DNA of 64,000 nt from Rhodospirillaceae bacterium. GTDB lineage: Bacteria > Pseudomonadota > Alphaproteobacteria > Rhodospirillales > JABHCV01. How positions within the stretch are numbered: the stretch's first letter is position 1; the number at the start of each line of letters is the position of its first letter. This document shows positions 20,616 to 36,735 of this stretch, one piece after another. Location: assembly GCA_018662005.1 (NCBI GenBank), contig JABJHA010000032.1:1-64000 (forward strand). The letters run 5' to 3'. The notes under the pieces were generated by a model, which made no database searches, was not told where the DNA came from, and worked only from the letters and a program-made list of their open reading frames with translations. Both the position numbers and the translations under genes were made by a program.

Positions 20616-20619
20616 CGTA

Positions 20620-21606: not shown

Positions 21607-23759
21607 TCTGCTTCCCCCTCGTTTTCACTGGAGGATGGCTCGCTGTTCACCTTGTTGACCAAATTGCCAAGCCAGAACATAAAGGCACAACCGACAAGGA
21701 ATAACAGCACAGCGCCGCCGACCTGCTGGGTCATCACGAAATTGGTCGGTGTACCTGCCCAGTCGGAGGTATCACGCATAATTCCGAAAATGTGCCAGTC
21801 ACCACGCAGACCGGATCGTATAAAGCCCATCAGCCCCATGTTCATGGTGATGACAATGGTCAGCAACAAAAGGGCATACTGGGAACGGGTGGTCATCTTG
21901 CCCCACTTCAGGGTTCCCACTTCTTTTGAACCTTTCCACAAGAACATGTCGATGGCGGTCACCAGGATCAAACAACTGATCAATTGCAGGAATTGCGATA
22001 CCGCGACGTTGCGCAATACAGGAGACGCTTTCTCCATAACGACAAAGCCCCAGACGCCTAGGAAAATGGCAACATTGAAAGCGGTTACCGAAAGGTAGAT
22101 GCCCTGCGCCAATTTGCCGTGATCGTTTAACGCCAGCACCACACACACGGCCGCCGTTGCACATTCAAAGATCAGCAACCAGCCCATGACGCGCATGTAA
22201 TAGGCACGGTCGGCAGGCAGGTCTAGTGCCGCCGGGTCCATCGTCATCATCGTTAGCGCATATTGACCGACCAGCAAAATGGCAGCGATACCCGCTCCGA
22301 TAATCACCAGCTTGGCGGTCTTTCCCTGTTCGCGGATTGATACGGGATCAACCTTGTTGCCACGCCTGTAGAGCAGGAAACTGAAGAAGGTCGACAGAAT
22401 AATCAGGTTGACGACGGCGTTCTTCGCAGGCATCAGGCCCAGGAATTTCAGCATCGGGTGGTACTGGCTTCCGCCCATTTCCCCAACTTCCAGCGCGGAC
22501 AGCGGAAGGTTATGGGGGGTTAACCAGATCGCAAAGGACAGGATCAACGCAAACAGGATGAACTTGATAAATTTATAATAACGCTCGGCTCCCGGAATGC
22601 GGGTCATGCCGCTCCACAGATAATAATTGGAAATCAGGAACAATGATCCGACGAGCATCGCCTGAATAATGAATGTCCACGAAAAGTCACCGCCCATCAT
22701 ATTGTTACCCATGACGGCGCTGGTCGAATAGACCTCGCGGCCAAGATAATAGCCGGCAAACGGGAGCGGAATCAGGGCCGCCACAGCAACCATGTTGGAC
22801 ACATATCCCATCCAGTCGTAATGGGCTTTGTCTTCAATGGTTTTGGAACCGATAAATTTGACGGCGGCATATGAGCCTGCGACCAAACCGCCGAAGGCCA
22901 GATTGCCAAGCATACGATGGATGGCAATGGGGGTGGCCAGAATATTTTCAAACGCCTGCCAGGTGGTGCCGGTAATTTCGAGTGCCGCGTTTACACCGAC
23001 CGGGCTCATCATGAATCCGGCCATTGAGTTGGCGAGCATCATGATCATGGTGCCTGCAACATTCAGCATGATGCCGATGGAAATGTGCGTCGTCTTCAGA
23101 TTTTTTGTCATGAAGAAACAGGCGGCGACAGGTACAAGGTAGAATACGATGATAAAGACACGCGTATCCGTGCGCATACCGCCTTCGGGATCAAAGACGC
23201 CAAAAGTGAAAGCGATGGTAAGCAGGATGGATACAGCGCCCAGCGCTTTCAAAATCAACTGCAACGGGCGGCCGAATTCCCGGCCCCCTTTCATTGCCTT
23301 CCATCCGTAGTAGTAGAGATAGAGGAAGAACGTTTCAAAGAAGAACAACAAGGCATACATGAACATGATGTCTTTGAAGACACCCGCCATGAAACCCCAG
23401 AAAGTTGGATAAAGGGTGACCATCGCAAAGGCCATTAATCCCCCAAGGGCCGCAGTCGTAGCGTAAGCAACGCTTAAAAGAGACGTAAATTCATAAGCAA
23501 GTTTGTCATATTTATCGTCTTTTGAACGCCAACCGACGATTTCGATAACCAGGGCGAACATGGGCACGCCGAGCACAAAAGCACCGAAGTAAAGATGCAT
23601 TTGCGCCAGGAACCAGACAAGACGCCTTGAATCTAGCCCCAAGAATTGCCTGTAAACATTTCCTTCCTGGGCAAAAGCCTGAGAGGCAAAAAGAACAAGG
23701 GCCAAAAGGGCTAAAACAGCAACACCCGGCTTTGTAAGGCGATTAAACACCTGTTTCAT
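21603..23759 (-). CDS. Cytochrome bd subunit I (CydA)-like membrane protein (module 2)
   Basis: The product is about 718 residues, larger than its paralogue at 14618 by roughly 110. It has a signal sequence, then the CydA-like core with QMHLYFGAFVLGVPMFALVI and FFFETFFLYLYYYGW. Later motifs are ANSMAGFMMSP, HRMLGNLAFGG, DKAHYDWMGY and IWLTPHNLP, all shared with module 1. The extra length is a C-terminal set of helices. No CydB is encoded. It starts module 2, whose genes overlap or nearly touch. I chose ATG 23759, which places a signal peptide at the N terminus. The acceptor is unknown; oxygen is possible. Confidence 0.78.
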   Translation of the reverse strand: MKQVFNRLTKPGVAVLALLALVLFASQAFAQEGNVYRQFLGLDSRRLVWFLAQMHLYFGAFVLGVPMFALVIEIVGWRSKDDKYDKLAYEFTSLLSVAYATTAALGGLMAFAMVTLYPTFWGFMAGVFKDIMFMYALLFFFETFFLYLYYYGWKAMKGGREFGRPLQLILKALGAVSILLTIAFTFGVFDPEGGMRTDTRVFIIVFYLVPVAACFFMTKNLKTTHISIGIMLNVAGTMIMMLANSMAGFMMSPVGVNAALEITGTTWQAFENILATPIAIHRMLGNLAFGGLVAGSYAAVKFIGSKTIEDKAHYDWMGYVSNMVAVAALIPLPFAGYYLGREVYSTSAVMGNNMMGGDFSWTFIIQAMLVGSLFLISNYYLWSGMTRIPGAERYYKFIKFILFALILSFAIWLTPHNLPLSALEVGEMGGSQYHPMLKFLGLMPAKNAVVNLIILSTFFSFLLYRRGNKVDPVSIREQGKTAKLVIIGAGIAAILLVGQYALTMMTMDPAALDLPADRAYYMRVMGWLLIFECATAAVCVVLALNDHGKLAQGIYLSVTAFNVAIFLGVWGFVVMEKASPVLRNVAVSQFLQLISCLILVTAIDMFLWKGSKEVGTLKWGKMTTRSQYALLLLTIVITMNMGLMGFIRSGLRGDWHIFGIMRDTSDWAGTPTNFVMTQQVGGAVLLFLVGCAFMFWLGNLVNKVNSEPSSSENEGEAE

Positions 23760-23812
23760 ATCCTGTTTTTCCCTTGCTCTATTCGCTTCGCACAATTCTT
23801 GCCATGACGTTT

Positions 23813-24595
23813 TCAGCCGTCATCTTTGAAGGTAAAGCTTTGTTCAAGCGAACCACCCGCCTCAACCGTGATTTTGGCTTTTTGCACGCCATATCGCGGA
23901 TGCCATGCCTTCAGGGTGTATTTGCCGGCAGGAATGCCGTCCAGAGAGTACGAACCATCTTCGCCGACAACGACTGCGTAGGGATGGGAAGGTGCCATCA
24001 TGAAGCCGAACATGAAGTTATGGGCTTCGCAGTTAATGCCGATGTAGGGTCCACGCCTGGTTTTCAGATCCTGCACCAGGTCACCCGGATCAGGCTGGCC
24101 GAAGTTGAAGATGCCCTTCTTGACGACGCGGCCTTTTTCGACGCCGATCATCTCGCGGGTATTGATGTTGTGCAGCACGCCAGGGTCGCTGTTACGAATG
24201 GTAATCGGGCCGGGTTTGATGACCTGGGCCCAGGGATGGAATCGGCATCCCTTCTGATTAATCAGATAAACCCCATCGGTCGGGGTTCCCCAATCCTTGC
24301 CTTCCTTGATTTTGTCCAGGAACACGAATGAGCCGCGCAATGCCCCGTCCTTGACATCAACCCAGATGACTTCGCGATCTCCATCACCACAAACTGTCTG
24401 ATCCTTGGTGATAAGGATTTGTTCGGTAGCATCAGCCGGCAAAGCGCCTTCAAACATCACCTTGCCGGTAACCGTTGCACCACCAGTGACGGCGATGACC
24501 TTGTATTTATTCTTGGCGGCTTCTGCGGCCAGTGGGGCCAACATCATCAAGGCGATGGCAGCGGCGAAGCCCTTGCGTATTACGTTTGTTTTCAT
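23813..24595 (-). CDS. Periplasmic cupredoxin-like protein with carboxypeptidase-regulatory-like domain
   Basis: The product is about 260 residues with a signal peptide (FAAAIALMMLAPLAAEA). The middle has a cupredoxin-like ligand set: His in DPGVLHNINTREM and the cluster C-E-A-H-N-F-M in INCEAHNFMFGF. The C-terminal part (GEDGSYSLDGIPAGKYTLKA) is a carboxypeptidase-regulatory-like or prealbumin-like fold. Such proteins are often labelled methylamine-utilisation-like. It lies between the HEAT-repeat gene and bd-like module 2. A copper-containing electron carrier is inferred. It has a paralogue at 36736. Confidence 0.72.
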   Translation of the reverse strand: MKTNVIRKGFAAAIALMMLAPLAAEAAKNKYKVIAVTGGATVTGKVMFEGALPADATEQILITKDQTVCGDGDREVIWVDVKDGALRGSFVFLDKIKEGKDWGTPTDGVYLINQKGCRFHPWAQVIKPGPITIRNSDPGVLHNINTREMIGVEKGRVVKKGIFNFGQPDPGDLVQDLKTRRGPYIGINCEAHNFMFGFMMAPSHPYAVVVGEDGSYSLDGIPAGKYTLKAWHPRYGVQKAKITVEAGGSLEQSFTFKDDG

Positions 24596-24631
24596 GGGAG
24601 ATAAATCCTTTCTTCCTTCAATCCTTGTCAT

Positions 24632-26884
24632 TTACGCGACAACCGGCGCCGCGCTGGAATTTTGACTTCCATTCAGTTCCTCAAGCGCTTCGATCGCCAC
24701 TTTCCAGAACCGTTTGCTCTGTTCATCATGAAGCGTCTCGATAAACAAGGCGCTGGCGGCTTGCCGGTCGATGCCCTTAAGCATCCGTGCGGCATGGCGA
24801 CCGTGATAGCCCTCGTGGGCATATGAAAATTCCACCAGGGTTTCGATAACCCCGGGGGCCGCTGTATCGGCTAAGGCCTGCGCGGCGGCAAGCCGGACAG
24901 AGGAATCCGGATCCGCCAACAGTCTGCCAACGCCAGCCCCGGCCTCGCCCAGACGCCCGAGAGAGCGAATGGCTTCGCTACGCACGAAGCTATCCTCATC
25001 ATCAAGACAGTTAATCAGGACCATCACCACAGAGGCCGTGTTGGTTCCTCCCAAGGCACGTACGGCCTGGTGGCGGATGTCCCGGTTATCGGATTTCGCC
25101 TCGGCTTGCAGGGCATCAAGGACTTCAAGCGGCATCTCAGATACATCACCGGCAATATGGGCCAGGGAATCGATGCTCGTTTGCCGAAGGTCTTTGTCGC
25201 CGTTTAACAATGGATCAAGCAGGGCGAGGGTTACGTCGGGTTGCGAAAAATTGCCAAGCAATCGCGCCGCGAACAGGCGCACATCTTCGTGCAAAACAAC
25301 ATCAGGAACGACCGGGATCGTCCGTCGACCCTTTTTACCAGCCCCTGTCAGACTCAAAAATTCAATGTCTTCTGGCGTCAACTCGACATCATCGGGGGGA
25401 GAAACGACCTCTTGGGATTTGAACCCGCCAAGGATTGAATCAAGAGTCGAAGTTGGAATTTCTTCTTCCGGTTCCCCGGCAACGTCTTCATCGACTTCCT
25501 CTGCATTTTCCTCTGGCTTGCTGCTGACAGCCTCTTCTGCATCATCTGTTTCAGGTTCCACTTCAGGCACGGGAACAAGCTCGCCGGAAACGGCCGCAAG
25601 AAGAGTCTCGCCCGCTGCATTGGGCCAATCGTCCTGGGCGGCCAATTCTGCAATTGCCGACATCGCCTCGAGACGAACCTGCCTGTCCGTGCATGTCAGG
25701 ATTCCTGCTAGGCCTTGCAGGGCTTCATCCCCGCCGACCATCTGCAGGCCGCGAATGGCGCCGCGCTGGACTTCTGATGAAATTTCTTCATCAGCCAACA
25801 TGCTGGCCAGTTCCGATGTCGCTTTCTTGGGATTGACGGCTGCAAAAGCAGTCGCGGCGGCAGACGCGATGACAGTGGATGGGGAACTCATCAGTTCGCA
25901 CAACCGATCATCGAGCATCGGGGTATTGGTCAATTCAGGATGTTCGGTCAGCAATTCGAGCACCGCCAACCGGACTTCCGGGTTCTTGTCATCAAGCAAC
26001 AGATCCAGTCGGCTTTCGTGGTGGGCTCCGCACAGACGCACCGTTTCAGCACGGACCTGTGGTTCCTCATCAAGAAGCAAGGCGACAAGACGTTCGTCCG
26101 CTGGATTTTTTTCGGCCAGGCCCCTGGCCGCAGCGAGACGCACTTCACTTGATGGATCTATGATTGCCAATTGCACGGCGTCCATGACCCCCGGTCCCTC
26201 ACACCCGGATATCACCGAAGCCGCGTGGCGGCGCAGCCGCGTGTCACTATTTTCAAGGTACGTGGCAAGGGCGCTTACGCCCGAGGAGCCGATCCGGGCC
26301 AGGGCTTTCATAGCGGTATCTGTAATGTCGAGCGCTTCATCGTCGTTTATCGCCGCAACGATACCCGGAATCGCGTCATCTACTCCAAGGTTGGCTAGTC
26401 CCTCCATAGCCTTTAGCTGCATGTCAAGCCAATCGTCCCATCCGGTTGCGAAGAATTCCTCTTCATCCCAGACGATGTCTTCGTCACGACCGGCCAGAAT
26501 GCGCAGCAGCCACGGTATGACTTCGTCGTTTCGGGAAGCAGCAAGCGCCGTCATGGCCGCCAGTTTTACTTCCGGGCAGGGATCTCCGATCAAGTTTTCA
26601 AGAAGTTGTTTATTCGCTTTCGGGTCGGCAAATCCGGCCAATGCGGTTGCGGCATCCGTGCGGACATCCTCGTCCTCGTCCAAAAGCGCCTTTATCAAGG
26701 CATCTACGGCTTTTTCACCACCGATTTTTCCTAACGCCTGGGCGGCGACAGTACGATGGATATCGATACCCCCAAGCAGCACTTCGCAAAGAATATTGCA
26801 AACATTGCCATCATCAGTTGCATTGGAGTTTGGCATTGGTGGTATTTCAGTATTTTTTGTTTCTATTTTCACCCCAGCTTCCAT
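24632..26884 (-). CDS. HEAT-repeat scaffold protein
   Basis: The 750-residue protein has no signal peptide, so it is cytoplasmic. It is built almost entirely of about 30-residue HEAT/PBS-lyase-type repeats (for example IHRTVAAQALGKIGGEKAVD and EDVRTDAATALAGFADPKAN). A highly acidic linker near 445-520 (rich in E, P, V, D) splits it into two solenoids. HEAT proteins of this kind bind partners or chaperone cofactor insertion. A GAAGG site 5 bases before ATG 26884 supports that start. It follows the idrA terminator directly. An assembly role for the molybdoenzyme or cytochromes is a guess from position. Confidence 0.8.
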   Translation of the reverse strand: MEAGVKIETKNTEIPPMPNSNATDDGNVCNILCEVLLGGIDIHRTVAAQALGKIGGEKAVDALIKALLDEDEDVRTDAATALAGFADPKANKQLLENLIGDPCPEVKLAAMTALAASRNDEVIPWLLRILAGRDEDIVWDEEEFFATGWDDWLDMQLKAMEGLANLGVDDAIPGIVAAINDDEALDITDTAMKALARIGSSGVSALATYLENSDTRLRRHAASVISGCEGPGVMDAVQLAIIDPSSEVRLAAARGLAEKNPADERLVALLLDEEPQVRAETVRLCGAHHESRLDLLLDDKNPEVRLAVLELLTEHPELTNTPMLDDRLCELMSSPSTVIASAAATAFAAVNPKKATSELASMLADEEISSEVQRGAIRGLQMVGGDEALQGLAGILTCTDRQVRLEAMSAIAELAAQDDWPNAAGETLLAAVSGELVPVPEVEPETDDAEEAVSSKPEENAEEVDEDVAGEPEEEIPTSTLDSILGGFKSQEVVSPPDDVELTPEDIEFLSLTGAGKKGRRTIPVVPDVVLHEDVRLFAARLLGNFSQPDVTLALLDPLLNGDKDLRQTSIDSLAHIAGDVSEMPLEVLDALQAEAKSDNRDIRHQAVRALGGTNTASVVMVLINCLDDEDSFVRSEAIRSLGRLGEAGAGVGRLLADPDSSVRLAAAQALADTAAPGVIETLVEFSYAHEGYHGRHAARMLKGIDRQAASALFIETLHDEQSKRFWKVAIEALEELNGSQNSSAAPVVA

Positions 26885-26979: not shown

Positions 26980-29649
26980 TCAGATAATGTCGCGCGGTGC
27001 GAAGGACATTGTTCGGAAGGTCCGTTTGTATTTGGACTCTCCGATCTTCTTCACTTTCGCCACACCCATCTTGTAGTTGTAGTTACCGCTGATCCAGTCG
27101 ACGATACGACCTTCAAGGGCGTTCGCAGGCTGTGACTTATGCAGGAAGTCCATGAACATGACACCCGGCTTGATATGGCGGGTGACAATCGCGACACCTG
27201 TTACGGCTGCTTTTGTCAGGACGACATTATCGTTCTTCATTTGACCGGAGAACGAATAGTCACTGCCTTCGATACCAAGGGTGGATTCTTTCAATCCCGG
27301 TACCCGGTTCGAGTAGACCATCAGAAGGTCGCCACTTTCGATGCCGCGAGCTTTGGCATCGGCAGGACTGATTTCGACATAGTTGTCGGGCCAGCGTTGA
27401 TGGATATACGGACGCCGGTCGTCATCGAAGCCAGACTGCCAACGTTCGTTTGTCCGTCCAGAGGTGCACCACAATTCGTCACCTTTGGGGCTTAGCCATT
27501 CCCAATAGTCCGAGAACAGCGACCATGGCGACTTCTGAATGTTGCAACGTCCGGTCTGACTGTTGAAATGCGTCAGTTTCTTGTTGAAGACGTTGCCAGC
27601 CTGGGCACCTGTCGCCGACAGCTTCCGGGTCGTGTCATGAAGCCTGACGGAACCGACGAGAGTGCCATCCTCTTCCATGGTGACCGGACCCTGAATGCCA
27701 TCGGTTCCAAGTTCCCGCATTTTTTCATGCAGGGTCTTGCCCTCACGATGGGCTGCCACCTTGACCATGTTGAAGTCCTTGCGGCTGCCGCGCGAGAAGC
27801 GGGCGGACTCTTCGGCAACTTCGTTGGAATTCTTCCAGTCGAAGCCGTCATAACCCATGCGTTGGGCAAGTTGGGCAATGATCCACCAGTCGGGTTTTGC
27901 ATCACCCGGTGCATCATAAAACTTGCTGTACAGCCGCAGGCGTCTTTCGCCGTTGGCGCGCATGAAGTCTTCTTCACCCCAGGTAGCGGCAGGGAAGACG
28001 ATGTCGGCGAATTGGGCACCGATCGGGTCAACCAGATAAATGTCCTGATTGATCACCACCATGCCACCGGAATCGGCCCGTTTTTTCAGGGTATCGACGA
28101 TATCCTTCTTGTCATACGAGCGAACCTGATGCGGATTGGCCGAGACCAGTTCCCTGAAACGCTTGGCCAGTTGCTGCGATCCACACATTGACTGGATCCA
28201 GGTGGTGCCAATGACGTGGGCAAAACGGGTGTGTCCCGAAATTGTCCAGGTATCGGTATCCAGGGCGCGTTTACGACGACCCGGCACCTTCAAGGGTGAT
28301 TTGGCACGCGGATACTTACCGCCGCGCTGACCACCGCGTTGATGGCCACCGGCCCGTCCGATCATCTGACCCGGACGACCGCCAGCACCACAGATGATGC
28401 CGAGGGCGGAAATAGCCTGGGTGTTGCCAACGTTATTGGACCAATAGAAGCCTTTCTCAATCATGATCGAGGTTTTAGGCCGTTTGCCGTTGACCGGCTT
28501 GGCAAGCCATTCGGCTGCCGTGCGGATCTTGTCGGCGTCAACGCCCGAGACCTTGGATGCATTTTCGACCGTGAATTCTTTCTGGGAAAGAAGCCACTTC
28601 TTCCAATCCTCGTAGCCACCGGTCTGGAACTTGCCCCAGGTGGTGCGCCACTGCCAGGGGGTATTACGCGTTCCCTGGCCAAAGCCTGAACTGGATCCCC
28701 ACTTGTCGTTGACCCAGTTCTTGATCCAGTCAGCGTCTTGCCAGTTATTTTCTGCGATAATACGCGCCATCGCATTGACAACCAGCAAGTCAGTTCCGGG
28801 AAGAACGTCTAGCCACAAGCCGCCATTTTTCTCGGCGTAAGCAACACCGGCAGTGCGGCGCGGTCCCATCATGATGGCCTTCTGGCCGCCCTGGATGGCT
28901 GGCATGATCCATTGAGTCCACAAAATGGTTTTGGTCTCGTAAGGATCCGTACCACACATCAATAGCGTGTCGGCATCGTGCCAATCCTGATAGGCCGGGC
29001 CAAAGTTGTCGAAGCCGGCGTCTCGGAAGCCGGGCGTCGATGACACGTCCGAGGGCGTGTCGTGGAACGTGAAATTGGCCGTGTTGATGTGACGCAACGC
29101 ATACTTGGTAATGGCGTACGTATTCTCGATATATTGATACGAGTATGTTTTAACACCGTAAGCGTTGTCGCCGTGTTTGGCGATCACGTGGCGACCCACC
29201 TGGGCGGCGACGTCAAGGGCGAAGTCCCAACTCACCGGTTGCAAAATACCATAAATTCTCATCAAGGGAGATTTCAGGCGATCACGGGTTGGTGTTTGCG
29301 GATTGTAGCATTTTTCCGCAATACAACCGCCACGGATCGACGAATCGCCATTGACGTTGACGGCATTGGTATCCTTGTCAGGCAGGATCACAACGTTGTG
29401 CGGTTTTTCATCGTGCATGACGACATTGTGTTGAGTGGGGGCGACCCATGATCCTAGCGGCGATACGGGGAAATCTTCCCCGAAGGCGTTCTGATCAGCT
29501 GTCGGTCCACCATCTTCAACGGTGGTGGGCCAGCGGTAAACCTTGTAGCCGCAGGCAACAATGCAATAGTCACATGCCGTGGTCAGGACTTCCGCATTTT
29601 TTGGCGGAAGCGGGACGTCGGTCTTGGGGATGTAATATGGTGTTGACAA
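26980..29649 (-). CDS. idrA: Arsenite-oxidase-family molybdoenzyme, probable iodate reductase catalytic subunit IdrA
   Basis: The 889-residue protein matches the arsenite oxidase AioA layout. It has a 3Fe-4S motif C26-x2-C29-x3-C33, the segment GGHQRGGQRGGKYPRAKSP, and an ending YKRTFRTMSF. It lacks a Tat signal, as AioA does, and should be exported together with the Rieske subunit encoded upstream. It is longer than AioA (about 825) and keeps company with two di-heme peroxidases, which is the signature of dissimilatory iodate reductase. The start is TTG 29649, 8 bases after GGAGG; no ATG is available. Alternative: true arsenite oxidase, which is less likely on context. The enzyme would reduce iodate in the periplasm using cytochrome c electrons. 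Confidence 0.82.
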   Translation of the reverse strand: MSTPYYIPKTDVPLPPKNAEVLTTACDYCIVACGYKVYRWPTTVEDGGPTADQNAFGEDFPVSPLGSWVAPTQHNVVMHDEKPHNVVILPDKDTNAVNVNGDSSIRGGCIAEKCYNPQTPTRDRLKSPLMRIYGILQPVSWDFALDVAAQVGRHVIAKHGDNAYGVKTYSYQYIENTYAITKYALRHINTANFTFHDTPSDVSSTPGFRDAGFDNFGPAYQDWHDADTLLMCGTDPYETKTILWTQWIMPAIQGGQKAIMMGPRRTAGVAYAEKNGGLWLDVLPGTDLLVVNAMARIIAENNWQDADWIKNWVNDKWGSSSGFGQGTRNTPWQWRTTWGKFQTGGYEDWKKWLLSQKEFTVENASKVSGVDADKIRTAAEWLAKPVNGKRPKTSIMIEKGFYWSNNVGNTQAISALGIICGAGGRPGQMIGRAGGHQRGGQRGGKYPRAKSPLKVPGRRKRALDTDTWTISGHTRFAHVIGTTWIQSMCGSQQLAKRFRELVSANPHQVRSYDKKDIVDTLKKRADSGGMVVINQDIYLVDPIGAQFADIVFPAATWGEEDFMRANGERRLRLYSKFYDAPGDAKPDWWIIAQLAQRMGYDGFDWKNSNEVAEESARFSRGSRKDFNMVKVAAHREGKTLHEKMRELGTDGIQGPVTMEEDGTLVGSVRLHDTTRKLSATGAQAGNVFNKKLTHFNSQTGRCNIQKSPWSLFSDYWEWLSPKGDELWCTSGRTNERWQSGFDDDRRPYIHQRWPDNYVEISPADAKARGIESGDLLMVYSNRVPGLKESTLGIEGSDYSFSGQMKNDNVVLTKAAVTGVAIVTRHIKPGVMFMDFLHKSQPANALEGRIVDWISGNYNYKMGVAKVKKIGESKYKRTFRTMSFAPRDII

Positions 29650-29662
29650 TTTATGTTCCTCC

Positions 29663-30286
29663 CTAACCCTGCAAGTTGTCGTGACGGCCGAAGATCAGGC
29701 CGAAAACGCCAACCGCGTAAATGTTGTCACCATCAAGCTCCAACAGGACCTGCGGCAAACTTTGATAAGCCTGACCCGAAATCAGAATCCCGTGACGGGT
29801 CAGATCGTAGGTCGACAGATGCAACGGACAGGCACCAAGGGATTTGGTATCGCCCTTGTAAGAGCCTGAGAGAGGCCCACCCTGATGAGTGCAAGTGTTG
29901 TTGAAAGCGACGACGTCACGATCGGCGCCGATGCCGCCACCGGCCTCTACGCCAAGCTTGACGATGACCGATTCGGAATAAGCGCCTTCGTCAGGATATG
30001 AAAAGTCGAGAGGTTCATCCTGTTTCAGGTCGCTCATCTTGGCGATCAGCTTGCGTGGATAGGTAGAGACCATCGCCGGTGTATTTGCGGCGACGCCAGC
30101 GCAACCGCTGAGCATGACGACCGAAACAGTGGCCCCCGATGTCAACAGGAACTCGCGCCGGTTTACCAGGCACTTGCCGCCCTTTTTATCGCTTTTGGCC
30201 ATTTCGCTGTTGGCCAAATCATGGCTTACCGGAACATCCGATCCGCTCATATGGGTTTCGATAGATTTTGTTTTAGTCATTTTCAT
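29663..30286 (-). CDS. idrB: Rieske iron-sulfur subunit, probable IdrB
   Basis: The product is about 207 residues. It has a twin-arginine signal (NRREFLLTSGATVSVVML) that begins unusually deep, near residue 42, after a charged N-terminal stretch. The Rieske 2Fe-2S ligands are present in CTHQGGPL and CPLHLSTYD. The family is the AioB/IdrB small subunit, which carries the Tat signal for both subunits and passes electrons between the molybdoenzyme and cytochrome c. I placed the start at ATG 30286, because the longer frame runs into the upstream peroxidase gene. It precedes idrA by 13 bp. Confidence 0.85.
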   Translation of the reverse strand: MKMTKTKSIETHMSGSDVPVSHDLANSEMAKSDKKGGKCLVNRREFLLTSGATVSVVMLSGCAGVAANTPAMVSTYPRKLIAKMSDLKQDEPLDFSYPDEGAYSESVIVKLGVEAGGGIGADRDVVAFNNTCTHQGGPLSGSYKGDTKSLGACPLHLSTYDLTRHGILISGQAYQSLPQVLLELDGDNIYAVGVFGLIFGRHDNLQG

Positions 30287-30293
30287 ATCCCCC

Positions 30294-31433
30294 TTATCTG
30301 ACCGGAGCAGGTAATGGTGCGTAGGGTGGAAGTTTCGGCGATGCGATCTTGATCTCGTCGCCGGAAAGAGATTCCAGGAAAGCAACCAGATCTGTGATCT
30401 CGTCCTCGGAAAGATTCAAGGGTTTGATCAAATCAGTCTTGTTGGCCGAAAACTCGTTCTTACCGCCACCCTCGTTATAGAACTCAACAACCTCTTGCAG
30501 ATCGAAGAAAGTTCCGTTGTGCATATATGGCGCCGTGTAGAGCGTATAACGCAGACTTGGCGTACGGAATTTGCCTTTGTCCTGCTCCAGCTTGGTGCGG
30601 AAGTAGAAGCCCGCATCGTCCTTGACTTCGCGATACATCTTCTGGGTTACACCCTTGGCATAGTTCTCGAACCGGAAGGTGATCTGAGCCAGGCCATTAT
30701 CAAGCCAGGTTTCGGCACGTGGAACGCCCAGGTTGTAGTACTTCTGATCGCTGAACAAGGCACCGTTGTGGCATTCGATGCAGTTGGCTTTGCCTTCAAA
30801 CAGGCCCTTGCCACGAACCGCTTCTTCAGACAACGCTGACTTATCGCCGTTCATATATTTGTCGAAGGGCGTATCGCGTTGCACCAGGGTGCGTTCAAAT
30901 GATGCCATTGCCCGCCAGGCATTTTTCATCTTCGGATATTCGTCGCCGAACACATCCTTGAACCGTTTGCGGTATTCGGGGATGAAGGCCAGACGCGCGG
31001 TGCCGATATCCGTTTCCAGATTGCCGGCAACACCACCTTTGGCGGCTGATGGCGCCTGAGCTTCCAGCGACTTGGCCGAGCCGGCCCAGAACAACTTGCC
31101 ATAGTAGGCAGAGTTAACGACCGTCTGGCTGTTACGCCAATGTATGGTGCCGGGATAACCGCGGGAAATATCGCCCGAGAATCCCCAGCCTTGTTTAGGC
31201 TCATGGCAGGTTGAACACGCCACCGACGCATCGCCGCTGAGGCGTGTGTCGAAGAACAGCAGCTTGCCAAGTTCAATTTTTTCCGGCGTCTGCTTGTTAT
31301 CGGATGGAATTGGTGGCGGCCCGAGGGCAGCCAGAGGCGCATTCACATCCGCCTGCACTGGACCGACAAGGGCGGCAACAGCAACCCCGATGGCCAGCCC
31401 GAAGGTGGTGGTTTTTGTCATAAACGTTGTCAT
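30294..31433 (-). CDS. idrP1: Di-heme cytochrome c peroxidase (IdrP-like, first of two)
   Basis: The product is about 379 residues with a signal peptide (TTFGLAIGVAVAALVGPVQA). It has two heme c sites, CSTCH near 80 and CIECH near 220. The region TAPYMHNGTFFDLQEVVEFY is the characteristic ending of the CcpA/MauG family. Iodate-reducing bacteria carry two such peroxidases beside idrAB, proposed to remove peroxide made in iodate reduction. I chose ATG 31433 (ATG 31436 is equally possible), after an AGGAG that overlaps the end of the upstream gene. The P1/P2 naming relative to reference strains is arbitrary. Confidence 0.85.
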   Translation of the reverse strand: MTTFMTKTTTFGLAIGVAVAALVGPVQADVNAPLAALGPPPIPSDNKQTPEKIELGKLLFFDTRLSGDASVACSTCHEPKQGWGFSGDISRGYPGTIHWRNSQTVVNSAYYGKLFWAGSAKSLEAQAPSAAKGGVAGNLETDIGTARLAFIPEYRKRFKDVFGDEYPKMKNAWRAMASFERTLVQRDTPFDKYMNGDKSALSEEAVRGKGLFEGKANCIECHNGALFSDQKYYNLGVPRAETWLDNGLAQITFRFENYAKGVTQKMYREVKDDAGFYFRTKLEQDKGKFRTPSLRYTLYTAPYMHNGTFFDLQEVVEFYNEGGGKNEFSANKTDLIKPLNLSEDEITDLVAFLESLSGDEIKIASPKLPPYAPLPAPVR

Positions 31434-31443
31434 CATCCTGCTC

Positions 31444-32574
31444 CTAGTTCGGGGTGTTGACCCAATCCGCGATAGCCGTGTAGTTGGCCGGGATTTTGTC
31501 TTTCCACACATGTTCTGCACTGGTCAGTGGATCACCACTAAGGGACTCCAGATAGGCAACCAGATCGGATTGTTCGCCTGCTGACATGCCAAGAGGCTTA
31601 AGAGCCTTGTCCTTGTTGGCATCCGAGCCACCGCCCTTGTTGTAGAAAGCGACAACATCCGACAGGGTTTTGATCATGCCATTGTGCATGTAAGGCGCTG
31701 TGTACTTCAGTTCGCGAAGTGTTGGCGTCATGAATTTGCCAATATCGGAACCGTCAGTTTTGTGTGAACGCACATGTGCACCGACGTCACGGCGAATGTT
31801 GAAGATGTTCTCAATACCCATAAACAGGCCGAAGGCGACATACGTATGATGACGCATGGGATCAAACCAGATGTCCGGGTTGTTGGGAACGGCCGTATTA
31901 TGAGGCTTGTCATCCGTAAAGCGGGTGCCGGTATGGCAGGTATCGCACTTTTTAGCATGGAAAACGTTTGCGCCACGCTTGGCGGCGGCAGACAACGTAC
32001 CTTTATCGAACGGAGCACCGCGCGAGGTAAGGGTCTTCAGATATTCGGGAATGGCTTTACGAACCGAACCGTTGGACGGTTCGCCGTAACCGGCATCCTT
32101 GAACATTTTCAGATAGACAGGATCCTGCTTGACGCGTTCCTGCATGATCCGCATATCCATATTCATTTTATAATCTTCAGTGATCGATTCACGGGTCACA
32201 TCATTAAGGTTGGTACCCAGACGTCCGTCATGGAACCACGCCGCTTTATGAGCCGTATTGATCAGGGTCGGGGTGTTGCGGAACCCTTCCGAACCCGGGT
32301 ATGCCTTGGAAAGTGCCAGGCCGTCCGCGAAACCTTTTTCGGGTATGTGGCAGGTAGCACAGCTCTGTGAACTGTCTCCGGAAAGACGCTTGTCGAAAAA
32401 CAGTCGTTTTCCTAAAGCCGCCTTTTTGGCATCGACCTCGATCGCCTTAACCGGCCCGGTTTCATGAGCGGTGGTGTTATTCGATACTAAAGTGAAAGAA
32501 ACTAAAACAGCCAAGGCCAGCCCGATATTTTGGGCCCAACCAAGACGCATCAATTTTGGAAAGCATGGTGACAT
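31444..32574 (-). CDS. idrP2: Di-heme cytochrome c peroxidase (IdrP-like, second of two)
   Basis: The product is about 376 residues with a signal peptide (IGLALAVLVSFTLVSNNTTA). Its heme sites are CATCH near 70 and CDTCH near 215, with TAPYMHNGMIKTLSDVVAFY near the end. It is homologous to, but clearly diverged from, the peroxidase at 30294. It is the first gene of the operon. The chosen ATG 32574 has a GGAGGGAAAA site and a leader of about 70 bases from the -24/-12 promoter. An ORF extension to 32682 would lie across that promoter region, so I reject it. Confidence 0.85.
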   Translation of the reverse strand: MSPCFPKLMRLGWAQNIGLALAVLVSFTLVSNNTTAHETGPVKAIEVDAKKAALGKRLFFDKRLSGDSSQSCATCHIPEKGFADGLALSKAYPGSEGFRNTPTLINTAHKAAWFHDGRLGTNLNDVTRESITEDYKMNMDMRIMQERVKQDPVYLKMFKDAGYGEPSNGSVRKAIPEYLKTLTSRGAPFDKGTLSAAAKRGANVFHAKKCDTCHTGTRFTDDKPHNTAVPNNPDIWFDPMRHHTYVAFGLFMGIENIFNIRRDVGAHVRSHKTDGSDIGKFMTPTLRELKYTAPYMHNGMIKTLSDVVAFYNKGGGSDANKDKALKPLGMSAGEQSDLVAYLESLSGDPLTSAEHVWKDKIPANYTAIADWVNTPN

Positions 32575-32658
32575 TAGCTTTTCCCTCCCGTTCAAGGCGC
32601 TCTTGCTAGCTATAAGATGACGCCTCATTATTCGTGGGCCCCTTAGATAATCTTCGTC

Positions 32659-32673
32659 GCAAAGATGGTCCCA
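32659..32673 (-). promoter_or_regulatory. Candidate sigma-54 (-24/-12) promoter of the idr-like operon
   Basis: Read on the minus strand the bases are TGGGACCATCTTTGC. They have the GG and GC dinucleotides at the correct 10-base spacing and a TTTGC -12 box, close to the consensus TGGCACG-N4-TTGC. The predicted transcript start is near 32647, about 73 bases before the first peroxidase ATG. An NtrC-type regulator gene lies just upstream, but see its GAFTGA defect. Confidence 0.6.
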
Positions 32674-32841
32674 CATCCTCAAATCAGGGGGGGAGTTTGA
32701 GCGTGATTTTTTCCCAGATCAATTCGCTAAATTGTTCATTTTATTGACTTTAGACTGCGTATAATGTGCGCAGCCTGCCAACATGAAAAACAACGGTTTA
32801 ATGGGCTAATTCAAATTGTTTTAATATGCGAAAAGGAAAAA

Positions 32842-32929: not shown

Positions 32930-34276
32930 TCACTCTTCACGAACGAAACCGAATTCACCGATCCGGCGTTCCAGCCGGGGCCGGCTTATACCGAGAATTT
33001 TACAGGCTTTTCCCTTGTGCCAACCCGTTGCGACGAGCACCGAACGGATATGATCGCGTTCCAGTTCCTTGAGCGACATACCTGAAGTCTTTCCTTCCGA
33101 GGGAGGTGTGAGTTTCTTTCCGCTAACGATTTCCTCTGGCAGGAACTTAATGTTCAGGGAATCCCCCTGAGCGATGACAACAGCCTTCATCAGTATGTTT
33201 TCAAGTTGGCGCACGTTGCCGGGCCAGTCATATGCGACAAGGACATCCATGCAATCGGATGCAACACGCTTGATGACCTTGCCTGCTTCCTTGTTGATCT
33301 TGTTAACCAACCGCTCGACAATCAGGGGAATATCTTCTCGGCGCTCACTGAGCGGCGGAATGGCAATGCTGAATACGCCAAGCCGGTAGTACAGGTCTTC
33401 ACGAAATTTCCCGCTTGCCACCTGCTGGGCCAAATCATCACTGGAAGCCATTATCAACCGGCATTCGGCTTTCACCGGCATGACGACACCGGTCGGGGTG
33501 TATTCGTTGTCTTCAAGAAACTTCAACAATTTTCCCTGAAGATGGAGAGACAGCGAAGTAATCTCATCTAGAAACAATGTGCCCGTACCGGCCAGATTGA
33601 TCTTACCCGGTTTGTTTCCATCGGCATTCCCATTCACGATTCCGAAAAGCTCATTTTCCAGGAGTGTGTCGTCCGAAGAAGAACAATTGACTACGACAAA
33701 CGGTTTTTCAGCATCAGCCGCCGCTCCGGCATTATGGATGGCTCTTGCCACGGCTTCCTTGCCGGTACCCGGCGCACCATGAATATGAACATTTACGCGG
33801 TTTTGTGAGGCAATTCCGATCAGCTTGAAAACATATTGTATGCCCGGTGATCGCCCAACGATGATCCCGTGCCGATCATCCTGGGCAAGGATGATGTCGT
33901 CTCCTGAATGACTGGTAACCTTGGTGATGGCCTTATCGACGGCGGCCTCCAGCTGTTCAAGGTCGATCGGCTTGGGCACGTAATCGACGGCTCCGCCACG
34001 CATTGCGGCCACCGTACTGTCAAGATCCTGAAAAGCCGTGATCATGATAAAGGGCAGTTCCGGCACCATTTCGTGAACTTCTTTCAGGAGCGACAGACCG
34101 TCCCGTCCGGGCATACGGATGTCGCTGATCACCAGGTCAAAGGATTCAGATTTGATAAAAGCCAGGCCTTCCTCGGCGGCGCTTGCGGTTTCGACATCGA
34201 AGCCATGGTCTTCAAAGTGCAGCTTCAGCGTTCTGCAACTCGCTTGCTCGTCGTCGATTACCAGTATTCTCGTCAT
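32930..34276 (-). CDS. NtrC-family response regulator lacking the GAFTGA motif
   Basis: The product is about 448 residues. The receiver domain (1-120) has the acidic pocket DDE, the phospho-Asp in LVISDIRMPG and Lys in YVPKPID. The AAA+ domain has Walker A (GAPGTGKEAVARAI) and Walker B (GTLFLDEI). A Fis-type helix-turn-helix is at the end (GKACKILGISRPRLERRI). Where GAFTGA should follow ELFG, the sequence reads IVNGNADGNKPGK, so the sigma-54-contact loop is missing. Some NtrC and HupR proteins of alphaproteobacteria share this lack and work with sigma-70. It is 14 bp after the kinase gene and upstream of the idr-like operon. GTG 34279 is an alternative start. Confidence 0.85.
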   Translation of the reverse strand: MTRILVIDDEQASCRTLKLHFEDHGFDVETASAAEEGLAFIKSESFDLVISDIRMPGRDGLSLLKEVHEMVPELPFIMITAFQDLDSTVAAMRGGAVDYVPKPIDLEQLEAAVDKAITKVTSHSGDDIILAQDDRHGIIVGRSPGIQYVFKLIGIASQNRVNVHIHGAPGTGKEAVARAIHNAGAAADAEKPFVVVNCSSSDDTLLENELFGIVNGNADGNKPGKINLAGTGTLFLDEITSLSLHLQGKLLKFLEDNEYTPTGVVMPVKAECRLIMASSDDLAQQVASGKFREDLYYRLGVFSIAIPPLSERREDIPLIVERLVNKINKEAGKVIKRVASDCMDVLVAYDWPGNVRQLENILMKAVVIAQGDSLNIKFLPEEIVSGKKLTPPSEGKTSGMSLKELERDHIRSVLVATGWHKGKACKILGISRPRLERRIGEFGFVREE

Positions 34277-34290
34277 CACCGTCAGCCTTA

Positions 34291-36612
34291 TTAATCTCTT
34301 TTCGCCGTTGGCAGGGTGAACGAAACCTGCGTTCCAATGCCGACACGCGAGACCAGGGATATTTCACCGCCATGGCGCTCAATGATACCTTTAACGATAG
34401 CTAAACCCAAGCCTGTGCCTTTGGTGCGTGTCGTAAAAAATGGTTCCATGACGTCACCAATGACGTCTTCTTCTATACCGCAACCGGCATCTGAAACTTC
34501 TATGGTAATCCACGGATTTGCAGATTGCTCCTGTAATTGGCCTGAAATTGTCATAACTCCGCCATCGGACATCGCGTGAATGGCATTTTCGATCAGATTT
34601 CTCAAGGCCGCGATAACCTTGAAGCGGTCACAATAAATGCGCGGCAGGCCCTTATCCAGATTACATACGACTTCAATGGCGTATTTCTCGACGATGTGCG
34701 ACACCGCCGTCAAGGCGTCTTCGATAATCGTGTCGAGTTGATGCCAGTCGGATTGCAGTTTTTCCGGGCGAGCATAACTCAACATATCGCTCAGGAACTG
34801 TTCCATATATCGGACCTGATCGAGTCCGATTTGTGTATGTTCCTGCTCCGGGTCACCTGGATTGGAATGCTTTCTGTTGAGAATTTGCAAATTCATCTTG
34901 ATCGTTGAGAGAGCATTCCTCAGGTCATGGGCGATCATGCTGGCCATGCGGCCAAGGACAGTCAATGAGCGCGTCTCGGTAATTTCCCGAGACCTTTCTT
35001 CAACTTCTTTTTCCAGTTGCTCCTGATAAGCCCGAGCCAGGGTAATGTCACGCTGAATACCCAAAAACGAGACAATATGACCGCTCTCGTCGAGAATCGG
35101 GCTGATGGTCAGATCGGCTGGATAAATTTCACCATTTTTTTTCTTGTTCCAGACCTCGCCCCGCCATGGTTTCCCAAGCGAAATTGCCTTCCACATTTTG
35201 CGGTGGGTTTCCGGGCGTGTCCTGGGCGATTTGACGATTGCAGGCCTTTGCCCGATGGCCTCGTTTGTCGAATAACCGGTAATCCTCTCGAAGGAAGGGT
35301 TGGCGTAATAGATTATACTTTCCGGATTGGTCAAAATAATGGCATCGGTGGCGCCTTCAACAGCTTGGGCGAAGGCCGCGAGTTCATTTTCCGACTGACT
35401 GACCCGTCGGGCCATACGGTTAAATTCTTCGGCCAGTTCGCCAATTTCATCCGAGCTTGAGATTTTTACCGGATGATCCCTGTCGCCTCGGGCGAACTGG
35501 CGAACACCTTTGCGTAAATCATGCAAGGGCTGGGTCATTGTCCAGGCCAACAAACCACCGGCGAACCCAACCAGAATAACACCAAAAAAACCGGTGACAG
35601 CAAACGATCCCAGGGATTTCTTTAGCCCTGCGTAGCTTTCATCTGGCGATTGCGTGACAACCACCGACCACCCTGGCAAGGAGAAAACATCTCTCAGGGC
35701 GTTAATTGAAGCAATGGGAGCGACGCAGACAAGGCGATCCCACAAACCGCCATCGCTGGTGGGTAGGGAAATCCAGTAAGGTTCGGAACCGGGCTTCAAA
35801 CCCTTGGCGGGAACAGCATTTGATGGCTTTTTTTTCGATAGGGCGGCGATCAGGAATGGCCGCGCTTCTCCGTGTAATGGCACGCCCGCGTAATCGACAG
35901 CAATGGCTTCACCGGTCTGGCCGAAACGCAGCGACATCACATCCTGGGTAAAAATCTTGAAATCCAGTTCAGCGTAGACAAACCCGGCAATGTTGACGCC
36001 GCCCCATACCGGCATCACCACTTTCAACAGATTGCTGGAAATGTCGATGTCCAGATAAGTAAAGTGTTCTTCTCTGGATTTGACCTTTAGGTACCAGGCA
36101 TGGTCCCTGACAACCCTGTCTCCCGTCGTGACCGTCGAACCAATAAGCACACCGCGGTGATCATAAACCGAAAAATCCTTGACCAGGGCGCCTTCAAGGC
36201 CGGCCAGAATGGACAGACGCTGGGAAAGTTGTGGGTGAAAGTATTCCTTGCGCAGTTTGCTGTTCGCCGAATTCTGCCATTCCCGATCCAGACGCTTGAG
36301 CCGTACTTCGATCCAATCATCGGAACGGTTGCGATAAAGGTGGTTGCCTTCCATCACCGCTTCCGCCGTCAGCACGTCAATGGCGATATTGCGTATCAGG
36401 GAAGTTTTCTGCGTTAAATGGTTTTCAAACTGGTCGGAGACCCGGCTTGCGATTTGGCAATAGGTCTGGCCGAGAGTGCCCTGAATCGAAACAAGACCCG
36501 TCACATAAACGACAGCCGCAGATATAAGAAGCACACCGACTGCGCCAAGACCAAACCAGGTCGCCAGGCGACCGCGAATACCGAGTGATTTTCTTCCGGT
36601 GTCTGATGTCAT
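34291..36612 (-). CDS. Sensor histidine kinase (dCache, HAMP, PAS)
   Basis: The product is about 773 residues. A membrane helix (LGAVGVLLISAAVVYVTG) is followed by a long periplasmic dCache-type domain (about 45-330). A second helix follows (AVTGFFGVILVGFAGGLLAW), then a HAMP domain, a PAS/PAC domain (about 415-535), a HisKA box with His in MIAHDLRNALSTIK, and a HATPase_c domain with LIENAIHAM, DAGCGI and GTGLGLAIV. It pairs with the regulator just downstream and probably senses a periplasmic signal such as iodate or a related oxidant. The ATG at 36612 with AAGGT is preferred over an upstream in-frame start at 36714. Confidence 0.87.
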   Translation of the reverse strand: MTSDTGRKSLGIRGRLATWFGLGAVGVLLISAAVVYVTGLVSIQGTLGQTYCQIASRVSDQFENHLTQKTSLIRNIAIDVLTAEAVMEGNHLYRNRSDDWIEVRLKRLDREWQNSANSKLRKEYFHPQLSQRLSILAGLEGALVKDFSVYDHRGVLIGSTVTTGDRVVRDHAWYLKVKSREEHFTYLDIDISSNLLKVVMPVWGGVNIAGFVYAELDFKIFTQDVMSLRFGQTGEAIAVDYAGVPLHGEARPFLIAALSKKKPSNAVPAKGLKPGSEPYWISLPTSDGGLWDRLVCVAPIASINALRDVFSLPGWSVVVTQSPDESYAGLKKSLGSFAVTGFFGVILVGFAGGLLAWTMTQPLHDLRKGVRQFARGDRDHPVKISSSDEIGELAEEFNRMARRVSQSENELAAFAQAVEGATDAIILTNPESIIYYANPSFERITGYSTNEAIGQRPAIVKSPRTRPETHRKMWKAISLGKPWRGEVWNKKKNGEIYPADLTISPILDESGHIVSFLGIQRDITLARAYQEQLEKEVEERSREITETRSLTVLGRMASMIAHDLRNALSTIKMNLQILNRKHSNPGDPEQEHTQIGLDQVRYMEQFLSDMLSYARPEKLQSDWHQLDTIIEDALTAVSHIVEKYAIEVVCNLDKGLPRIYCDRFKVIAALRNLIENAIHAMSDGGVMTISGQLQEQSANPWITIEVSDAGCGIEEDVIGDVMEPFFTTRTKGTGLGLAIVKGIIERHGGEISLVSRVGIGTQVSFTLPTAKRD

Positions 36613-36735
36613 GCAGCAACCTTCACAAATTTCCTGTTCGCGTGCTTCCCCATCTGGACGTTCGATGCCTCTAGCATGTAACCTCACCGTGCCATCGGCA
36701 CCCAAGAAACGCATTTACTCTAGACTGACAGTACA

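Follow-up and report, generated by a model that had tools for sequence, protein, structure and literature searches.

The window, by which we mean the whole 64,000-nucleotide stretch of contig JABJHA010000032.1, from a marine Rhodospirillaceae bacterium, that was analyzed, carries a cluster of idr-type genes on its minus strand, with a two-component regulatory pair upstream. In the direction of transcription, the features down to idrA are the following.

36736..37548, plus strand: second cupredoxin/CarboxypepD_reg-type protein, divergent from the kinase gene and 31% identical to the first such protein, listed further below
34291..36714, minus strand: atoS-like sensor histidine kinase with HAMP and PAS domains (dCache match under its cut-off)
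32930..34279, minus strand: atoC-like sigma-54 response regulator
32659..32673, minus strand: candidate sigma-54 promoter TGGGACCATCTTTGC (agrees with the consensus at 9 of 11 bases; 5 of 500 shuffles did as well)
31444..32682, minus strand: open reading frame of the first-transcribed di-heme peroxidase (CX2CH twice; CCP_MauG, E 5.2e-38)
30294..31520, minus strand: di-heme peroxidase adjoining idrB, idrP1 under the positional naming of DN11 (CX2CH twice; CCP_MauG, E 1.5e-42)
29663..30385, minus strand: idrB, Rieske subunit (Rieske family; Tat motif NRREFL; CXHX18CX2H)
26980..29649, minus strand: idrA, catalytic subunit of 889 residues with a TTG start (Molybdopterin and Rieske_3 families)

All four genes that the initial annotation had claimed at 26980-32574 are present there on the minus strand. 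They match the expected families (CCP_MauG twice, Rieske, and Molybdopterin plus Rieske_3) with E-values of 1.8e-7 to 1.5e-42, so these assignments are not due to chance. The first-transcribed peroxidase probably starts at an ATG at 32574, behind GGGAGG, and the [3Fe-4S] motif of IdrA, CX2CX3CX70S as printed for Azoarcus DN11, begins at C26. The order peroxidase, peroxidase, Rieske subunit, molybdoenzyme, with cytochrome genes following on the same strand, was also confirmed. The proposal that a peroxidase-first order is unusual had to be rejected, however: it was found in 63 of the 64 relatives with enough upstream sequence, as well as in Vibrio and Azonexus, and is the ordinary transcription order of idr.

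The same kind of sigma-54 regulator gene has been described upstream of idr in DN11 and is present in the Azonexus plasmid too. Among relatives of the window, the best sigma-54 promoter candidates had 9 matches in L019 (9 of 500 shuffles as good), 8 each in L023 and L040 (63 and 77 of 500) and 6 in L022 (293 of 500). Upstream regions with at least nine matches numbered 3 of 67, compared with 2.1% in shuffles. Since nothing comparable was seen in L022, the nearest relative, the window candidate is a weak one. IdrB carries a lipobox-like LSGC after its Tat motif, read by eye in the translation. A lipobox serving as membrane anchor of module-bearing clusters was considered and rejected; a script, which in some cases (the window's IdrB among them) settled on an RR further upstream, detected it in just one of 33 module-bearing rows, L022, and in 0 of 55 others, and it is thus at most a trait of the small window lineage.

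We assign the cluster, on sequence grounds, to the idr (iodate reductase) type and not to the arsenite oxidases, as the initial annotation had done. IdrA shares 72-91% identity (best segment) with 80 named loci, almost all of them from Alphaproteobacteria; among the matches listed (40 of 670 records), identity was 65.5% to Vibrio, 49.7% to Thiothrix and 49.6% to Azonexus, and at most 30.4% to plasmid AioA. Placement of the 889-residue protein in an AioA/IdrA phylogeny had been proposed as a check. In the resulting tree, made from 94 rows by a quick method, with long AioA branches flagged and no row recognized as a characterized IdrA, the Idr clade was separated from AioA with an SH-aLRT of 99, and the window protein lay within it, outside the true arsenite oxidases. 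At the position of AioA Glu203, in the numbering of A. faecalis AioA, Glu was found in 7 of 7 AioA references and in none of 103 Idr-like rows (Asn 94, Ile 4, Ser 4, gap 1), the window IdrA having Asn. Arg419 and His423 of AioA are kept in Idr-like rows, and the His195 position is less telling (His 4, Trp 2, Pro 1 among AioA references). The Idr motifs CX2CX3CX70S in IdrA and CXHX18CX2H with a Tat signal in IdrB are both present.

The window cluster shares with AioAB its sequence family, its [3Fe-4S] and Rieske subunits and matches to the NCBIfam arsenite oxidase models, whose cut-offs are passed by the large subunit (TIGR02693, 417.8 versus 359.05) and the small one (120.2 versus 95.65). However, in Azonexus an Idr-type gene bears this NCBIfam arsenite oxidase name too, so the model cannot tell Idr from AioA; a published IdrA profile uses a score threshold of at least 640. 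Residue 203 alone is not decisive either, because an AioA-like protein of G032, placed with AioA in the tree and 36-41% identical in two segments, likewise lacks Glu there and has Ala. The AioA-like L012, with Ala at residue 203, was set aside from both reference groups. Taken with the tree, the Idr motifs and the adjoining peroxidase genes, the replaced Glu203 leads us to reject a true arsenite oxidase as highly improbable.

After idrA, the same strand continues with genes for a HEAT protein, a cupredoxin and two paralogous bd-like/cytochrome sets, A and B, and then for heme-making enzymes.

24632..26884, minus strand: HEAT-repeat protein of 750 residues, with no transmembrane segment by hydropathy
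23813..24631, minus strand: predicted cupredoxin with a CarboxypepD_reg-like domain
21603..23795, minus strand: bd-like membrane protein A, 730 residues, 17 hydrophobic segments; N-terminal part matches CydA
20620..21606, minus strand: cytochrome c, two CX2CH, set A
19653..20630, minus strand: membrane-anchored cytochrome c, one CX2CH, set A
17973..19649, minus strand: cytochrome c, two CX2CH, with EB_dh (heme b) domain and C-terminal helix, set A; NxrC-like C terminus
17288..18004, minus strand: cytochrome c, two CX2CH, set A
16903..17274, minus strand: small cytochrome c, one CX2CH (listed reading frame starts at 17328; probable start 17274)
14618..16447, minus strand: bd-like membrane protein B, 609 residues, 39% identical to protein A over 467 residues
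13801..14790, minus strand: cytochrome c, two CX2CH, set B
13021..13788, minus strand: membrane-anchored cytochrome c, one CX2CH, set B
11483..13036, minus strand: cytochrome c, two CX2CH, with EB_dh domain, set B; 36% identical to its set A counterpart
9057..10736, minus strand: universal stress domains and PCP_red domain
7739..9409, minus strand: radical SAM/SPASM protein near the heme-modifying enzymes NirJ2 and AhbD, with PCP_red domain (326 bits, short of the 500 cut-off)
6333..7742, minus strand: protoporphyrinogen oxidase (262 bits, cut-off 97.85)

Where 2600 bases or more of a named locus are available downstream of idrA, a HEAT homologue follows in 65 of 66 cases; none was seen in G630. 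The predicted model of the cupredoxin (pLDDT 89) gave a cupredoxin match over 85 residues (Z 11.3, rmsd 2.1), with His141, Cys188, His191 and Met194, in the numbering of the first row of the alignment, as candidate copper ligands. EB_dh domains occur in both sets, and it is the set A protein that matches 6h5l_B (2.4e-52) and 7b04_C, subunit C of nitrite oxidoreductase (3.4e-9). In a comparison with functional residues of CydA, heme ligands included, the His21 equivalent was invariant in 28 rows of bd-like proteins; it and the Glu108 equivalent are invariant in bd-like A and B, the Glu101 equivalent is not conserved, and His286 probably corresponds to His186, as suggested by a sub-threshold alignment. 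For protein A, the predicted model reached no more than a moderate pLDDT of 73. This protein had no match among plasmids, and no step in base composition marked an island (GC 0.51-0.55 across 20-36 kb).

Set A lies downstream of idr in 16 of the 59 loci with enough sequence, and a set-B-like cassette upstream of it in 9 of 50. A bd-like gene was not seen in the sequence available for 51 of 80 idr loci, and of the 41 loci whose flanks are long on either side, 28 lack it. The Ruegeria loci show none. Set B also occurs without idr (G091, G117, G350, G448 and G657), and the heme-making enzymes follow it in either case. An A-type bd-like protein was present in 6 of 385 genomes of the class (one as a fragment), all six with idrA and the organism's own genome included. 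Exclusivity of set A to idr (6/6 in this sample) may not extend further: among 40 relatives, G003 and G021 carry set A with idrA not found, on contigs that stop short of the expected place of idrA. In G012, idr, a HEAT-like gene and set A stand in one row. The set A of G163 is nested among other set A sequences, yet its IdrA is only 55-56% identical; in G437 (IdrA 50% identical), a bd-like cassette and a cupredoxin gene stand ahead of both peroxidase genes. Because bd-like cassettes adjoin idr in several divergent lineages, and at different positions, their physical link to idr is probably functional.

The window shares its four gene types and their motifs with the idrABP1P2 clusters of Pseudomonas SCT, Denitromonas IR-12, Azoarcus DN11 and Roseovarius azorensis, and its atoS/atoC-type regulators with DN11, in agreement with the position of its IdrA in the Idr clade. 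In contrast to these clusters, it adds the HEAT protein, the cupredoxin and the two bd-like/cytochrome sets after idr, whereas DN11 has been reported to have no c-type cytochrome gene near idr. In its parts, the module resembles the genes described around nitrite oxidoreductase in Nitrospina, Nitrospira and Kuenenia, which likewise include a bd-like protein extended by extra helices, cytochromes c with one or two hemes, an NxrC-like subunit and cupredoxin-like proteins; this likeness is drawn from descriptions, NxrC being the one sequence compared. The window differs in that its catalytic enzyme is Idr rather than Nxr, and in that a di-heme cytochrome and the NxrC-like domain form a single fused protein. 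The OR-N CydAA' proteins of the cytochrome bd superfamily, likened to the window proteins by description, have a CydA-like N-terminal half and adjoining cytochromes c. Across the searched portions of the open-access literature we found no link of idr with bd-like, HEAT or cupredoxin genes, nor, in texts mentioning both, between cytochrome bd and iodate; the neighborhood figure of PMC8692401 may show such genes.

We propose that the locus comprises an iodate reductase operon, preceded by a two-component sigma-54 regulator and extended by an accessory electron-transfer module that feeds IdrAB, a reading to which we give about an even chance. IdrAB would be exported via the Tat signal of IdrB and would reduce periplasmic iodate, the di-heme peroxidases clearing H2O2 or other oxidants that arise in the process. 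The cupredoxin and c-type cytochromes would carry electrons through the periplasm, and the two bd-like/cytochrome/NxrC-like sets would join this carrier pool to the membrane. For the enzyme itself, Denitromonas no longer grows on iodate once idrA is knocked out, IdrA being needed for iodate respiration, and in R. azorensis IdrA was the top protein of an iodate-reducing gel band and the genes were induced by iodate. The identity and order of the idr genes, the parts of the module and its repeated physical link to idr can be read from the sequences compared; that the module feeds IdrAB we infer. The "different electron supply" put forward in the initial annotation is supported in part: a bd-like/cupredoxin/cytochrome module lies beside idr here and in several other lineages and may supply electrons, burn O2 or take electrons away, but most sampled loci show none in the sequence available. 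The module is not needed for electron supply as such, because the genome carries a bc1-type cytochrome b, the route drawn for Denitromonas. As a separate observation speaking against such a need, R. azorensis, presumably of the same family as Ruegeria, reduces iodate, and the Ruegeria loci show no module. Also weighing against the proposal, the bd-like proteins of nitrite oxidizers were reported to be devoid of quinol-binding residues.

Among the alternatives, it is possible, though doubtful, that iodate reduction takes the usual route via bc1 and cytochrome c, and that the bd-like sets are cytochrome c-oxidizing O2 reductases (OR-N CydAA', with bdA and bdB perhaps paired), made under the same conditions, which use or scavenge trace O2 and protect an O2-sensitive Idr. 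OR-N enzymes have been described as putative O2 reductases of this type, and the invariant His21 and Glu108 equivalents, the probable His186 equivalent and the heme-making enzymes after set B would suit them. Moreover, iodate reduction by washed R. azorensis cells required prior static growth and did not occur under air, and it was far weaker in shaken cultures. The nearest relatives come from metagenome-assembled genomes named NIOZ-UU42 and SI037, labels that we take to denote the Black Sea and Saanich Inlet. However, the genome is already equipped with three COX1 family members, namely a cbb3 oxidase, an aa3-like oxidase and one more, and the Glu101 equivalent is not conserved. The Nitrospina authors thought a canonical bd-like role unlikely for such proteins barring another quinol site.

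That the module is a mobile or ancestral respiratory cassette residing beside idr with no shared role is unlikely. Its lack from most sampled idr loci and the occurrence of set B without idr would fit such a passenger, as would the poor conservation of genes surrounding idrABP1P2 described in PMC8692401. Yet divergent idr cores show the link again, at positions that vary, and across the genomes searched the A-type protein occurred either together with idrA or on contigs ending early.

We consider it very improbable that the operon works in reverse, with IdrAB oxidizing iodide and the module handing electrons to O2 as in nitrite oxidizers. The resemblance to the nitrite oxidoreductase set, with its NxrC-like and bd-like proteins, and a RuBisCO in the genome (best match PRK13475; form II in our reading) would suit such an iodide-oxidizing autotroph, but idr genes are reported to be iodate-induced in SCT, DN11 and R. 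azorensis, IdrA is required for iodate respiration, the window has a kinase/regulator pair of the DN11 kind, and seawater iodine (0.4-0.5 μM) offers little to live on. Equally remote is a reversible, membrane-coupled iodine redox chain, a counterpart of the nitrite oxidoreductase chain, in which iodate would be respired in low-oxygen water and iodide oxidized with O2 near the oxic edge, helping to pay for CO2 fixation by RuBisCO. A periplasmic type II nitrite oxidoreductase was rejected as electron donor, the best TIGR03479 match in the genome scoring 102.5 bits against a cut-off of 984.75.

Returning to the accessory module as a feeder of IdrAB, the combination of idr with a bd-like/heme/copper set points to an undescribed wiring of iodine chemistry to respiration. 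The electron path to or from iodate reductase is open beyond the proposed bc1/cytochrome c551 route. In 2013 the bd-like protein encoded next to nitrite oxidoreductase was described as enigmatic, and in 2024 its family was called uncharacterized. These two questions meet in the recurrence of such parts next to idr in several lineages, which makes the idr-linked module a second system for testing the role of bd-like complexes. There is a bearing on iodine cycling in the sea as well: should the module link iodate reduction to energy conservation, the bacteria that carry it may be iodate respirers, in contrast to R. azorensis, which failed to grow anaerobically on iodate.

The cluster in the window is of the idr type, a known kind, and is not an arsenite oxidase (Aio) cluster. 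Its source contig (C32) belongs to an assembly of 3.5 Mb in 53 contigs. The genes are listed below in the order of transcription; the initial annotation had the coordinates of the idr cluster right, including the first peroxidase start.

Upstream of the idr peroxidase genes: sigma-54 response regulator and sensor kinase
31444-32682, minus strand: di-heme peroxidase ORF, transcribed first; start at 32574, with GGGAGG ahead of the ATG
30294-31520, minus strand: second di-heme peroxidase ORF
29663-30385, minus strand: Rieske gene (idrB), with Tat motif
26980-29649, minus strand: molybdoenzyme (idrA), 889 residues
24632-26884, minus strand: HEAT-repeat gene, next after idrA

In an AioA/IdrA phylogeny, the window molybdoenzyme was placed in the Idr clade, apart from AioA (SH-aLRT 99). 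This tree was built from 94 of the 114 rows collected, after prior removal of fragments, near-copies and most Ruegeria rows, and none of its rows was recognized as a biochemically characterized IdrA. The run flagged AioA rows for their long branches, and a Cytobacillus row brought the joint support of the seven AioA references down to 56. Among the 40 of 670 records listed, identity to the window IdrA was 65.5% for a Vibrio megaplasmid gene, 49.7% for Thiothrix and 49.6% for Azonexus, while the remaining records, AioA of Thermus, Pseudosulfitobacter, NT-26 and others, reached at most 30.4%. At the position that we take to be AioA active-site Glu203, all seven AioA references carry Glu, whereas the 103 Idr-like rows carry Asn (94), Ile (4), Ser (4) or a gap (1), and Arg419 and His423 are conserved in all 102 Idr-like rows long enough, with near-identical rows included in these counts. 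An AioA-like locus from a genome of the same order (L012 of G032) is intermediate between Idr and AioA records (41% and 36% identity in two segments); it groups with AioA in the tree, has Ala at the Glu203 site and was assigned to neither group. Both motifs published for Azoarcus DN11 (CX2CX3CX70S in IdrA, CXHX18CX2H in IdrB) occur in the window proteins, as does the Tat signal of IdrB. Clade placement, the replaced Glu203 and these motifs together bear out the initial assignment to the iodate reductase family. The window proteins also score above the cut-offs of the NCBIfam arsenite oxidase models, but the Idr-type gene on an Azonexus plasmid bears the same NCBIfam name, and such a match is therefore not decisive.

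We compared the locus with others from a GTDB genome scan (best 80 of 449 relatives, all but one alphaproteobacterial by title, a sample biased to near kin), in which the best named IdrA matches were the Rhodospirillaceae MAGs NIOZ-UU42 (91%) and SI037_bin24 (89%). The order peroxidase, peroxidase, idrB, idrA was found in 63 of the 64 loci with at least 3,400 bases upstream of idrA; the other 16 of the 80 were cut by a contig end and lie outside this count. The same order occurs in Vibrio, in Azonexus and in the loci of G012, G097, G163, G431, G630 and G727. It is thus the ordinary idr order, and not unusual as had been supposed. The exception, L062, showed two peroxidases but no recognized idrB; it is the second idr locus of MAG OFTM323, which also carries L041, and the HEAT gene was not recognized there. 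The accession numbers of DN11 run A, B, P1, P2 with regulators described upstream, which would fit peroxidase-first transcription as well. The regulator pair upstream of idr is common but not general, since a kinase match was present upstream in 17 of 50 loci with enough sequence. In the window and in one relative's locus (L022), a lipobox-like LSGC follows the IdrB Tat motif; no such motif was seen in the other rows properly read by the script. IdrB of this lineage is possibly a membrane-anchored lipoprotein.

Downstream of idrA, and on the same strand, the window encodes a HEAT-repeat protein, a CarboxypepD_reg protein, two bd-like proteins and eight cytochromes c. Of the 66 named loci that extend far enough, 65 have the HEAT-repeat gene after idrA; no such gene was found there in Vibrio, Azonexus, G431 and the alphaproteobacterial G630. 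We regard it as a candidate fifth idr gene in these Alphaproteobacteria, perhaps with a role in enzyme maturation. The product of the next gene is predicted to contain a cupredoxin domain (pLDDT 89), with amicyanin and pseudoazurin as top Foldseek matches; a VIA-align comparison of the model with a cupredoxin gave Z 11.3 over 85 residues at 2.1 Å, and His141, Cys188, His191 and Met194 are unchanged across 30 rows of two paralogous kinds. A second cupredoxin/CarboxypepD_reg-type gene lies at 36736-37548 (plus strand), divergent from the sensor kinase, as also in L022, L023 and L040.

The remaining genes form two sets, A and B, each with a bd-like membrane protein, a two-CX2CH cytochrome c, a membrane-anchored one-CX2CH cytochrome c and a two-CX2CH cytochrome-EB_dh fusion. 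The sets are paralogous (bd-like proteins, 39% over 467 residues; EB_dh proteins, 36% over 560), and the set A fusion matches nitrite oxidoreductase subunit C. Residues equivalent to CydA His21 and Glu108 are retained in the bd-like proteins, as probably is that of His186 (via a sub-threshold alignment), but not that of Glu101, the roles of these four CydA residues being presumed here. Set B is followed by a further group of genes:

6333-10736, minus strand: Usp/PCP_red protein, radical SAM protein and protoporphyrinogen oxidase

The radical SAM protein, which also contains a PCP_red domain, lies near NirJ2 and AhbD, below cut-off. The three genes adjoin set B in loci with idr (window, G318) as well as in loci lacking it (G091, G117). 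Their presence behind set B suggests a special haem, and they may serve the production or insertion of an unusual haem.

Among loci drawn from the best 80 of 449 relatives, a bd-like gene was present in 29 of 80 named idr loci and in 13 of 41 with long flanks on both sides; where enough sequence was available, set A followed idr in 16 of 59 loci, the region ahead of the peroxidases contained a set-B-like cassette in 9 of 50, and 33 of 64 had a cupredoxin-type gene downstream. The idr and HEAT genes are present in the Ruegeria, Pseudovibrio and Roseibium loci, but no module gene was seen in the available flanking DNA. Going by their titles, the loci found to carry the module come from MAGs. Across 385 genomes of the class, 12 had idrA, 11 a member of the bd-like family and 7 both; a set A-type bd-like protein was found in 6 (the G234 copy being a fragment), all 6 with idrA, the window's own genome counted. 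Of 40 relatives including the own genome, 6 had the A-type protein and 4 of these idrA, which was not found in G003 (67% complete) or G021 (94%), where both contigs end short of the expected idrA site. In 398 genomes of the phylum, the A-type protein was restricted to the own genome, with the bd-like family in 4 and idrA in 5. Set B was present and idrA not found in G091, G117, G350, G448 and G657; in G082, where idrA was not found either, the end of a contig carries a kinase, a regulator and, after them, a bd-like cassette. The surroundings of idr, described as poorly conserved in the accessible text of PMC8692401, are less poorly conserved in these Alphaproteobacteria than stated there.

The association recurs in divergent lineages. 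The G163 bd-like protein falls within clade A, next to L041 (SH-aLRT 97), whereas its IdrA belongs to a separate deep branch and shares just 55-56% identity with that of the window. In G012, which belongs to this branch too, a single row of genes runs regulator, cupredoxin, peroxidases, idrB, idrA, HEAT-like gene, set A; its set B lies on a different contig. In G437, from another class of the phylum (IdrA 50% identical, idrA on a separate short contig), a kinase, regulator, bd-like cassette, NirJ-like gene and cupredoxin gene precede two peroxidase genes at a contig end (L185 with L187), and a protoporphyrinogen-oxidase-like gene lies on the opposite strand between regulators and peroxidase genes. 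These arrangements indicate that idr and bd-like cassettes were joined in more than one way, although an exchange of the idr core within existing loci, rather than separate unions, would also fit. No bd-like gene was present in the stretches read of the idr loci in G097, G431, G630, G727, Vibrio and Azonexus, nor in a genome-wide search of G097, whose locus is cut within idrA.

Iodate reduction by IdrAB takes place in the periplasm; HIO and H2O2 have been proposed as products or by-products of the reaction, with a detoxifying role for the peroxidases, and Denitromonas requires idrA for iodate respiration (according to the accessible part of PMC8692401). In Roseovarius azorensis, iodate under low O2 induces the idr genes, and anaerobic growth on iodate is absent (PMC11445184, in part). 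In the kinds of its components, the module corresponds to a set described, in the available portion of PMC3578206, for Nitrospina gracilis, Nitrospira and Kuenenia, where nitrite oxidoreductase (NXR), an alternative NxrC, mono- and di-heme cytochromes c and cupredoxin-like and bd-like proteins are clustered. For that bd-like protein, with 14 predicted helices and a function called enigmatic, the same text considers a canonical bd oxidase-like role unlikely because quinol-binding residues are missing, and suggests an alternative-complex-III-like role provided that it contacts quinone. The own genome gave no match above cut-off to a periplasmic type II NXR.

The module would link periplasmic carriers and the membrane. 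Our first choice is that it forms a donor branch to IdrAB. A cytochrome c-oxidizing O2 reductase beside Idr is a close second and agrees with the OR-N descriptions in the accessible parts of PMC10839748 and PMC12342949. Operation of module and Idr in reverse, as iodide oxidation, is unlikely. The cytochrome modules initially reported are indeed present downstream, and the "different electron supply" proposed for them was a worthwhile pointer, the donor role being just one of these three readings.

The own genome further encodes a cbb3 oxidase, a third COX1 family member, a bc1-type cytochrome b and an aa3-like oxidase scoring below the model cut-off. One 764-aa frame of the window (38724-41018, plus strand) encodes both the large and the medium subunit of a B12-dependent diol/glycerol dehydratase. 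A RuBisCO gene (best match PRK13475) lies at 1075-2454 of L167 on contig C7 of the own genome, behind an ORF that is aldolase-like by eye, and CO2 fixation by this cell is possible. As far as the literature searched shows, an idr cluster joined to a putative NXR-like electron module would be a new combination.
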